Source: Sphingopyxis sp. L1A2A (GTDB taxonomy: Bacteria; Pseudomonadota; Alphaproteobacteria; Sphingomonadales; Sphingomonadaceae). From it: a DNA stretch of 64,000 bases. Positions within the stretch are counted from its first letter, which is position 1. Every line of letters starts with the position of its first letter. The stretch lies in the NCBI RefSeq assembly GCF_005502465.1, contig NZ_SCOT01000014.1:1-64000 (forward strand), in the 5' to 3' direction. The translations under genes and the position numbers were made by a program. Of the stretch, positions 53,886-56,630 are shown piece after piece. Under the pieces are notes generated by a model. It saw only the letters and a list, made by a program, of their open reading frames with translations, did not search any database and had not been told where the DNA came from.

Positions 53886-54197
53886 GGCAAGGCGATCCTC
53901 ATGATCCGGGGGAAATTATCGTGCGCCGATATGTAAGGATGGAAAAGCCGGGGGCAAGTGGATTTGTCCCGCGTCGCTCGCCGCCGACCGTGCGAGTGCC
54001 CACCCTCCCATTCTGCCCGACTATGTGCCGCGGTGGGGCATAAATAATAGTGTATCAGTTATTTAGGCATAAACAGATGTTCTATCTATAGTATTACGTA
54101 ACAACTAACTTGTCAGCCATCGCGTGCTGATTTACCCGAGTCACCGCAGCCACGGGTCGCAATTGTTCGGGCTGCGTAACCGGAAGGGATATTCCCG
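53886..54197. other. Gene-free, partly AT-rich promoter region
   Basis: These 312 bases hold no credible gene. The left half is GC-rich, while 54040-54120 is strikingly AT-rich for this genome and carries several repeats: an inverted pair TAAATAA/TTATTTA (54041-54065), the direct repeat GGCATAAA at 54037 and 54066, and the palindrome TTACGTAA (54094-54101). It must contain the promoter of the small gene and radical SAM pair, and possibly that of the S9 peptidase on the other strand. Confidence 0.6.
54037..54101. promoter_or_regulatory. AT-rich control region before the radical SAM pair
   Basis: The inverted repeat TAAATAA (54041-54047) and TTATTTA (54059-54065), two copies of GGCATAAA 29 bases apart, and the palindrome TTACGTAA make an operator-like region in otherwise high-GC DNA. 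It lies about 100 bases upstream of the first start codon at 54198. The binding protein is unknown. Confidence 0.5.
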
Positions 54198-54506
54198 ATG
54201 AAAGCGACCCACGACTTAGCCACCAAATTTTCCTCCGCCCGCTTCGACAAGGGCCGAATGAAGGCCTTTGCCGAGCATGTCGCGAAGATCGAAGCGAGCG
54301 GCGACATCCAGATCATCGACATCTTGGACAACGGCATCCCGCCGTTCGAGGATCTGGCGAGCGTGCATTTCAAGGTGCCGCGGACCAAGATCGGCACCAT
54401 ATTGGGCGATCTGCTCAGCGCGGGCACGCTCAACCCCAGCGTCATCATCAACGGCATCCCGGCCGAACGGCTGGTCAATGTCCATGTCGCGGTGCGTGGG
54501 CACTGA
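54198..54506 (+). CDS. Unknown small protein coupled to radical SAM gene
   Basis: This 102-aa cytoplasmic protein has no Cys, Trp or Tyr, no signal and no membrane segment. It has an N-terminal helix (GRMKAFAEHVAKIEASG) and then strand-like pieces DIQIIDIL, VHFKVPRTKIGTIL, NPSVIINGIPAERLVNVHVAV. The motif NGIP occurs twice (residues 45-48 and 85-88), suggesting an internal duplication. It ends three bases before the TTG of the radical SAM gene. It could be a substrate, a partner or a regulator of that enzyme; I recognise no family. Coding composition matches the genome. Confidence 0.75.
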   Translation: MKATHDLATKFSSARFDKGRMKAFAEHVAKIEASGDIQIIDILDNGIPPFEDLASVHFKVPRTKIGTILGDLLSAGTLNPSVIINGIPAERLVNVHVAVRGH

Positions 54507-54509
54507 CCG

Positions 54510-55523
54510 TTGGTCGGTGCCATTGCGAGCAAGACGGTTCAGGTTCACCTGAACCGTCGTTGCAACCTCGCCTGCGCGCATTGCTATTCGGCTTCGGGAC
54601 CGCGTGAAACCGAACAATTGCCGGTGGCCGCGCTGATCGACTTTCTGGAGGAGGCCGCGAACGAAGGCTATGGCGTCGTCGCCTTTTCGGGCGGCGAGCC
54701 GTTTCTCTACGACGATTTCGCGGCGGTGCTGGCGGCGGCGAAGGCGCTGGGACTGCGGCGCCTCGCGGTCACCAACGGCACCGTGCTGACCGGGCGGCGG
54801 GCCGCGGCGCTGGCGCTGCTCGACCTGGTGGCGGTGAGCGTCGACGGCCGCGAGGCGGTGCACAACCGCATCCGCCGCTCGCCCACCGCCTTCGCGCGGA
54901 TGCTGAAGGGACTCGACGTCGTGCGCGGCGCCGGGCTGCCGTTCGGGATCGCGCATACGGTGACTCGCGACAGCCTGGCCGATCTGCCGTGGATGGCCGA
55001 GTTTGCGGTGAAGCAGGGCGCGCGCATCCTCCAGCTGCATCCGCTCGGCATGGTCGGCGCGGCCCAAGAGGGGCTTGCGGGCGCCCAGCTCGACGGCGAA
55101 ATCCTTGCGCGGACCTGGCTGACGGCGCTGGCATTGCAGGCCGATTATGGCGAGCGGCTGGCGATCCATGTCGATCTGTTCAACCGCGCAACGCTCGCCG
55201 CGCGGCCCGATCTGGTGGTGCCGGGGGAGGGCGGCGCAGCGGGCAACCCACGGCTTTCGGACATCCTCAACCCGCTGGTCGTGATGGCGAATGGCGAGCT
55301 CAGCCCGATCTGCCACGCGATGGGGCCGGGGTTCCGCTTTGGCCGTCTCGGCAGCGAACCGCTGCCCGAGATCGCCCGCCGCTTCCGCAGGTCGACGCTC
55401 GGCGATCTGCGCGCCCTGTGCCACGGCCTGTGGCAGGAGGTGGTCGATGATGAAGAGGGCTGGCCGTATCTCAACTGGTACGAACTGCTCGAAACCCGCG
55501 CGCAGCTACAGCTGGTGCATTAA
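54510..55523 (+). CDS. Radical SAM protein, unknown product
   Basis: The 337-aa enzyme has the radical SAM cluster motif CxxxCxxC at Cys18, Cys22 and Cys25 (RRCNLACAHCYS), SGGEP at about residue 60 and LLDLVAVSVDG further on, so the core barrel is intact. Only two more Cys occur, at 268 (SPICHAMG) and 304 (ALCHGLW), too few for a full SPASM domain with auxiliary clusters. It is preceded by a coupled small protein gene; TTG at 54510 starts it. The end overlaps the convergent reductase gene by 18 nt. A peptide- or cofactor-modifying role is possible but unproven. Confidence 0.88.
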   Translation: MVGAIASKTVQVHLNRRCNLACAHCYSASGPRETEQLPVAALIDFLEEAANEGYGVVAFSGGEPFLYDDFAAVLAAAKALGLRRLAVTNGTVLTGRRAAALALLDLVAVSVDGREAVHNRIRRSPTAFARMLKGLDVVRGAGLPFGIAHTVTRDSLADLPWMAEFAVKQGARILQLHPLGMVGAAQEGLAGAQLDGEILARTWLTALALQADYGERLAIHVDLFNRATLAARPDLVVPGEGGAAGNPRLSDILNPLVVMANGELSPICHAMGPGFRFGRLGSEPLPEIARRFRRSTLGDLRALCHGLWQEVVDDEEGWPYLNWYELLETRAQLQLVH

Positions 55524-56630
55524 GCGGGCGCGATCCCTTTCCGCGCCGTAGGTTGCGATCCCCAACGCCGCAAAATCCGCCGCGGACTCCGCCAGCGTCA
55601 GCATCCCGGCGCACACCCTTGCCCCCGGCGCAGGCGGGCGCCCGCCCTGAAACCGCCGCAGCATCGCCAGCGCCGCGAGCACCGGCACATACGGCCCCCG
55701 GTTGCCGTCGGCGCGCAGCGTCCAGCGCGCGTGGGCGGGAGCGCCGCCCGCATCCTGCCCGGTCACAATCACGTCCATCGCCCCGATATCGCTCCCGAAC
55801 GGCAGCAGCAGTTTCGCCATCGCCAGCAACGGCCGCGCCGCCGGGCGCAGGCTGCGCACCCACCCCCAGCGCACCGGCAACGCCAGCAGCGCCAGCCCCA
55901 GGTGAAGCAGGCTCAATTCCATTCCGGCGAAAAACTCGGCGCTGCCCTGCGGGGCGTAACGCGCGACGAGCAGATCCTGCTCGGGGGTATCGCACACGCT
56001 CGCCCAGCGCCGCCCAACCCCCGGCACCGCCCAGCGCTGCGTCATCCCCCATCCGGGCACATCGGTCCACGCGCCGCCGCGCCACACGCGCACCGGGTGG
56101 CCGACATAGGACAGGATCGCCTGCACCACCGCCAGCCCGCGCGGCGCGCGGTTGCCGGGAAAGATGCCGATGCGGATATTGTCGATGCCCGTCCACCCCC
56201 CGGTCAGCGCGTCGATCACGGCATGCGACAGCGCCGGGATCGAACTCGCGCCGCAGGTGACGCTGATCCCCGCCGCCTTTGCAGCCGCATCATGATCGCC
56301 GATCGCCGCAACGAACGCGCGCCCGTCGGCCAGGTCGACATAATGGACCCGGGCCGCGATCGCCGCCACGATCACCGTCGGCGCCGACGCCTGAAACGGC
56401 CCCGCGGCATCGACCACGACATCGAACCCGGCGAGGTCAGCGCCGGTCACCCGCTCGCGGTCGAGCACCCGCACCGCCAGCCCGCCCAGCCGCGCCGCCA
56501 GCGCATCGAGCTTTGCCCGGTCGCGCGCCGCCAGCGTCAGCGCGATGCCGGGTTCCAGCACCGCGCGCTCGGCCAGCCGGCTCCCGAACACCCCCGTCGC
56601 CCCGATCAGCAGGACGCGCAGGTCAGCCAT
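55506..56630 (-). CDS. Saccharopine dehydrogenase-like reductase
   Basis: The 374-aa protein has the NADP loop LLIGATGVFGSRLAE (residues 6-20) and the segment VVDAAGPFQASAPTV (about 72-86) of the trans-acting enoyl reductase/saccharopine dehydrogenase NADP-binding family. The C-terminal region has hydrophobic helices (LHLGLALLALPVRWG), as in membrane-associated homologues. The true substrate is probably a lipid or polyketide-like molecule rather than saccharopine. Its start overlaps the end of the DUF4166 gene by 8 nt, and the two are co-translated. Confidence 0.87.
   Translation of the reverse strand: MADLRVLLIGATGVFGSRLAERAVLEPGIALTLAARDRAKLDALAARLGGLAVRVLDRERVTGADLAGFDVVVDAAGPFQASAPTVIVAAIAARVHYVDLADGRAFVAAIGDHDAAAKAAGISVTCGASSIPALSHAVIDALTGGWTGIDNIRIGIFPGNRAPRGLAVVQAILSYVGHPVRVWRGGAWTDVPGWGMTQRWAVPGVGRRWASVCDTPEQDLLVARYAPQGSAEFFAGMELSLLHLGLALLALPVRWGWVRSLRPAARPLLAMAKLLLPFGSDIGAMDVIVTGQDAGGAPAHARWTLRADGNRGPYVPVLAALAMLRRFQGGRPPAPGARVCAGMLTLAESAADFAALGIATYGAERDRARLMHQL

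Follow-up and report, generated by a model that had tools for sequence, protein, structure and literature searches.

Most of the small partners known for radical SAM enzymes are either winged helices of the RRE type or precursor peptides. In the haloarchaeal pseudo-SAM/SPASM family TIGR04347, a small gene of ~112 aa, encoding a partner of the Htur_1727 family, lies immediately upstream of the enzyme gene. The PqqE/PqqD system likewise has its small partner gene just upstream of the radical SAM enzyme gene, and PqqD with PqqE is the precedent for a small partner of such an enzyme (PMC10906245). In SkfB, a Twitch sactisynthase, an RRE is fused to the enzyme and Aux I has three Cys ligands (PMC6231123).

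The window analysed here, 64,000 nucleotides of Sphingopyxis sp. L1A2A, contains a gene pair of similar layout, in which a gene for a 102-aa protein directly precedes a radical SAM gene. The pair differs from each of the systems above. PqqE is a SPASM enzyme. The small protein of the window has no PqqD-like sequence (profile comparison with a PqqD gave no match), and PqqD was rejected as its relative. TIGR04347 proteins have more C-terminal Cys than the window enzyme, and the Htur_1727-family partner, which shows no similarity to the small protein, was rejected as well. SkfB is the best PDB sequence match of the enzyme (E = 4e-14) and both have a Twitch-like C-terminus, but the window enzyme has no RRE and only two Cys in that part, and the small protein offers no Cys for a crosslink. 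Literature searches on Sphingopyxis radical SAM proteins, the Htur_1727 layout and ferredoxin-like radical SAM partners returned nothing useful. Since both genes always co-occur, they probably constitute one two-component enzyme system. The pair, narrow in distribution and dispensable, is an undescribed variation on the plan of a radical SAM enzyme with a small partner; the earlier note on this DNA had singled it out as the best candidate for an undescribed system, an idea that is partly borne out: the pair is genuine, tightly coupled and undescribed, but we file it under this known plan.

Junction, distribution and genomic site of the gene pair

The small gene (54198..54506, + strand) is an ORF with an ATG start and a TGA stop, and its 102-aa product is free of Cys, Trp and Tyr. 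The radical SAM gene (54510..55523, + strand) starts with TTG and encodes a 337-aa enzyme, placed in the radical SAM superfamily by its match to Pfam PF04055 (67.5 bits against a cut-off of 29.5, E = 2.1e-18). Three nucleotides, CCG (54507-54509), separate the stop of the former from the start of the latter. The sequence thus confirms the earlier description of the small protein, its two NGIP motifs included, and of its end 3 nt before a radical SAM gene. Values of dN/dS for the small gene ranged from 0.02 to 0.09 among close species and reached 0.28 in the most distant comparison; the enzyme gene gave 0.16-0.20 and 0.22, respectively. Being well below 1, the values for the small ORF exclude a chance ORF, and purifying selection acts on both ORFs, which are thus genuine genes. 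Among close species the small protein is better conserved than the enzyme, an order that flips for the most distant pair.

A consensus scan detected a possible promoter (TAGGCA-17-TATAGT, 54064..54092, + strand) within the AT-rich leader, as one of three sites in the region against 0.1 expected; the second promoter hexamer is recognisable in close relatives. The two ORFs share one frame and are separated by TGA-CCG-TTG. This stop-CCN-TTG junction is retained in every species with the pair, and upstream of the radical SAM core no start codon other than this TTG follows the stop, which suggests translational coupling and near-equal amounts of the two proteins. Such stoichiometry would fit a subunit better than a precursor. 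The shared frame and the lack of anything other than TGA-CCN-TTG between the ORFs in all species would also allow read-through of the TGA, with one fused protein of two domains as the product. However, the TGA is kept in every homologue and is never a sense codon, no fused homologue was found in the genomes searched, and a shared frame is expected by chance in one of three cases. A recoded or read-through TGA thus found no support, and we regard a fused product as scarcely credible.

Searches of 80 genomes from the genus located the small gene in five and the enzyme gene in the same five, and none of the 80 held only one of the two. The small genes at loci L003, L004 and L005 match those of genomes G349, G343 and G337 exactly. 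Loci and genomes are most likely the same in these cases, and the carriers then amount to five species, that of the window included. No further credible small protein was obtained from a single-sequence search of 298 family genomes or a profile search of 385 class genomes, and nothing credible came from plasmids, viral contigs, PDB sequences or PHROGs; a few matches at E about 0.0006-0.005 were short and low-scoring, some with internal stops. As Actinomycetota were not broadly covered by these searches, the family may be wider than shown. Conservation of the pair side by side, which the earlier note had proposed to check in other sphingomonads, is seen within the genus but not across sphingomonads. 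Nor did the small protein prove to be a common stand-alone domain, as no solitary copy was found in the genus, family and class genomes searched.

In carriers, the pair is invariably flanked by a prolyl oligopeptidase gene and a saccharopine-dehydrogenase-like gene, both named from our own reading of the sequences. The two flanks adjoin one another directly in at least seven related genomes (L024, L025, L026, L028, L030, L031, L034), in which the stretch upstream of the oligopeptidase is still alignable. Comparison of occupied and empty loci places the segment missing from the empty sites of sister species at approximately 53975..55540, with boundaries set by eye to about +/- 20 bases, and its start is therefore further upstream than the 54037 given earlier. 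In a tree of the dehydrogenase, made by a quick method and of moderate support, carriers occupy two places, one four-species clade and one separate species, with non-carriers between them. At synonymous sites, the pair and its most distant homologue diverge by 0.66-0.67, between the values for the flanking genes (0.53 and 0.93), and for this reason we infer that old presence at the site and repeated loss fit better than recent arrival. Whether lost repeatedly or recently arrived, the pair is dispensable. It is small, seemingly independent of neighbouring genes and naturally absent from sister species, so it could easily be tested by expression or deletion, and its very narrow distribution limits its general importance.

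Two further observations concern the downstream flank. In the window, the saccharopine-dehydrogenase-like gene is convergent with the radical SAM gene, and their 3' ends overlap by 18 nt (55506-55523); in carriers the last residues of the dehydrogenase are antisense to the 3' end of the enzyme gene, and the presence of the pair thus accompanies an altered C-terminus of its neighbour. In two pair-less genomes of the genus (L022 and L023, 1-1500), the dehydrogenase adjoins a sigma-factor-like ORF and another ORF rather than prolyl oligopeptidase, which implies that the chromosomal site has been rearranged more than once.

Predicted fold and internal repeat of the small protein

The small protein matched nothing in Pfam, in NCBIfam or among PDB sequences, and PHROGs yielded no noteworthy hit. 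An AlphaFold2 model built from four sequences (mean pLDDT 71, pTM 0.62, moderate confidence) has the elements H19-33, E38-44, E53-61, H62-77, E79-85 and E92-100. At this moderate confidence, the protein is predicted to be a duplicated alpha-beta-beta unit with a permuted ferredoxin-like fold, an order of elements that differs from the winged helix of PqqD and the RRE. Foldseek searches with the model gave a best E of 1.2e-3. In structure comparison, designed proteins reached Z scores of at most 9.5, and the periplasmic domain of XcpY scored 8.8 (79 residues at an rmsd of 2.7). The matches comprise the designed protein Peak6 and the permuted ferredoxin-like periplasmic domains of XcpY, PulL, PulM and PilO; they were rejected as kin, the arrangement they share with the model being a widespread one.

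NGIP occurs twice, at residues 45-48 and 85-88. The first copy, within DNGIP (residues 44-48; 54327..54341, + strand), forms a predicted loop between strands 1 and 2, and the second (54450..54461, + strand) a predicted loop between strands 3 and 4, such that, by this prediction, the two motifs form the turns of equivalent hairpins. The two halves of the protein align above shuffled sequences (local p 0.0014 for the window protein and 0.025 for the most distant homologue). An internal duplication is therefore likely; whether the NGIP repeats align as one was a check proposed in the earlier note. Residues 41-52 and 78-93 are invariant among homologues. Between the window protein and the most distant homologue, the hairpins are identical at 46 of 51 positions and the remainder at 29 of 51 (permutation p 0.00015), with helix 2 nearly free to vary (4/16 identical). 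Since conservation concentrates in the NGIP hairpins, they are likely the working surface of the protein.

The size of the small ORF and its position upstream of a radical SAM gene recall a classical RiPP cluster, in which it would encode a long precursor with leader and core. However, its C-terminal 25 residues are the most conserved (24/25) where a variable core would be expected, the protein is predicted to be structured up to residue 100, and the pair is accompanied by no peptidase, transporter or RRE of its own. Pair-less species also have the prolyl oligopeptidase next door, which was on this account rejected as a dedicated processing protease. We consider a classical RiPP cluster very improbable. 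The earlier note had suggested a modification system with its own substrate or partner. The two genes do form an exclusive, coupled pair, in the same five of 80 genomes, and a modification system is one possible reading of it, but the evidence leans against a substrate of the precursor type, because the protein is predicted to be a folded two-repeat domain, is conserved through its C-terminus without a variable core, and is accompanied by neither peptidase nor exporter.

The radical SAM core and C-terminal part of the enzyme

The motif CNLACAHC (CxxxCxxC; 54561..54584, + strand) contains the predicted ligands of the SAM-binding 4Fe-4S cluster, and its Cys are invariant, also in the Mycolicibacterium relative described below. 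The enzyme has five Cys in total, C18, C22 and C25 of this motif and C268 and C304, as first reported. Alignments place C268 after a beta-hairpin and C304 after a helix of a Twitch-like C-terminal part (55251..55424, + strand), of which they are the only Cys. In the auxiliary-cluster ligand scheme for SkfB, BtrN and MoaA, Twitch domains have four or three Cys and SPASM domains seven (PMC6231123). Judged against this scheme, the C-terminal part, with Cys at two of four Twitch positions, lacks the full set of auxiliary cysteines of a SPASM or Twitch domain, and a conventional auxiliary cluster is thus unlikely from the sequence. The stretch NPLVVMANGELSPIC fits the Twitch beta-hairpin pattern, in a part where the model of the fused proteins is of low confidence. 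The statement of the earlier note that the enzyme lacks a full SPASM domain can be made more precise: the C-terminus is better described as being of Twitch type, with Cys at two of the four positions where they are expected.

The enzyme could be assigned to none of the named families, and it fell far short of all NCBIfam cut-offs. The best NCBIfam score was 97.9 bits against a cut-off of 525 (TIGR04347), and the top scores cover the core only. PqqE (TIGR02109, 62.9 bits against 381.35) and MftC (TIGR03962, 69.7 bits against 265) scored far below their cut-offs. A core-domain tree with representatives of NirJ, PqqE, GDL-type, GrrM, MoaA, TIGR04347 and TIGR04053 recovered the enzyme as its own fully supported branch inside none of these families, in a tree with long branches and without a firm exact placement. 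It lies outside a 100/100 clade holding PqqE, and apart from NirJ and the GDL maturases. Of the groupings that the earlier note had named as refuting its view, that with PqqE was thus not observed in the tree, and MftC is likewise far off by its NCBIfam score. Viral and phage relatives showed core-domain similarity only, or none.

Most of the top NCBIfam scores were to NirJ/AhbC/AhbD-type haem enzymes, and the best PDB matches include the BlsE type of nucleoside decarboxylase. The enzyme might accordingly act on a small metabolite, such as a tetrapyrrole or a nucleoside sugar; the small protein would then be a not strictly essential accessory, and the pair a lineage-specific metabolic add-on. 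These matches, however, span the radical SAM core only (residues about 10-185), at 90-98 bits against cut-offs of 500-650 (TIGR04051, TIGR04546 and TIGR04545: 93.1, 92.9 and 90.1 bits against 515, 650 and 500), and no tetrapyrrole or nucleoside gene was recognised adjoining the pair. A metabolite target therefore appears rather unlikely.

The small protein as a possible partner or substrate

The explanation we favour, tentatively and at somewhat less than an even chance, is a two-component radical SAM system in which the small protein is an obligate, dedicated partner that docks by its NGIP hairpins. The enzyme would combine one SAM-cleaving 4Fe-4S cluster with a degenerate Twitch C-terminus. 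The partner, made in step with the enzyme via translational coupling, would fold as two helix-plus-hairpin repeats and dock through the conserved hairpin side bearing both NGIP turns. Once docked, it may complete or gate the active site, or present a substrate, which would be another peptide or a small molecule whose gene or synthesis lies elsewhere; next to the pair, the analysis detected no gene for a substrate. Complex formation, the docking face and the role of the partner are what we infer here, and a read-through fusion model of both proteins, of low confidence (mean pLDDT 50, pTM 0.46), does not demonstrate a complex.

A partner is favoured because conservation stronger than that of the enzyme among close species suits a protein with many contacts and not a precursor, and because a Mycolicibacterium relative of the enzyme likewise follows a small hypothetical gene. 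This relative, WP_155921908 of plasmid pCBMA213_1, was the sole full-length enzyme relative among the loci gathered; with a profile of Sphingopyxis enzymes only, it scored 131.5 bits over residues 9-327, and the next best match 96 bits over the core only. It is 30% identical to the window enzyme over 325 residues, the C-terminal part and C304 included, but C268 is replaced and there is additional Cys elsewhere. The hypothetical protein WP_155921909 (118 aa) is encoded ~30 nt upstream, a layout resembling the Sphingopyxis pair. Its homology to the small protein was not established, with a suggestive N-terminal helix motif as the only likeness (shuffle p of about 0.002-0.003 in global and about 0.1 in local alignment, hhalign probability 0.3%). 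The small proteins of the two genera are thus without demonstrable kinship, which counts against a partner role, and coupling and strong conservation would suit a protein substrate as well.

The main rival, possible though less probable, is that the small protein is itself the substrate. Hydrogen abstraction in both NGIP hairpins of the folded protein would then lead to a permanent change on which its function depends, such as an oxidation, an epimerisation or a carbon-carbon link. The exclusive pairing of the small gene with the enzyme and the duplicated, invariant NGIP turns would be expected in this case, the closest solved sequence relatives include the peptide-modifying SkfB, PqqE and YydG, and C268 and C304 could act as hydrogen donors. 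On the other hand, the lack of Cys in the small protein makes thioether chemistry impossible on the substrate side, and Trp and Tyr for the common aromatic crosslinks are also missing. No recognition domain was seen on the enzyme, and neither the variable core typical of substrates nor an accompanying peptidase or exporter is present. We retain the dedicated partner as the preferred reading.

A more specific proposal, speculative and on balance unlikely, is a new two-component family whose obligate, duplicated permuted-ferredoxin-like protein stands in for both the RRE-type partner and the domain of the auxiliary cluster, or else is modified itself at the two NGIP hairpins, which are equivalent by symmetry, as a folded-protein substrate of an undescribed kind. 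Should there be an obligate partner of such a different, duplicated fold, the notion of a radical SAM system would broaden, and genome miners would have a new gene layout to seek.

Other small genes beside radical SAM genes were seen on plasmids. On Deinococcus radiodurans plasmid CP1 (L096:1471-3519), a 113-aa hypothetical gene lies between two radical SAM genes with 4-nt overlaps, in a compact unnamed cluster. On an Indioceanicola profundi plasmid (L055:186-4041), three radical SAM genes and a PqqD-family gene stand in a row, adjoining TIR-domain and SIR2 genes. On a Sinorhizobium medicae plasmid (L048:2465-8222), one unannotated run, with names assigned by eye, comprises 109-aa PqqD-like, SPASM-type radical SAM, second radical SAM-like and decarboxylase-like ORFs, preceded by a QueA-like ORF.
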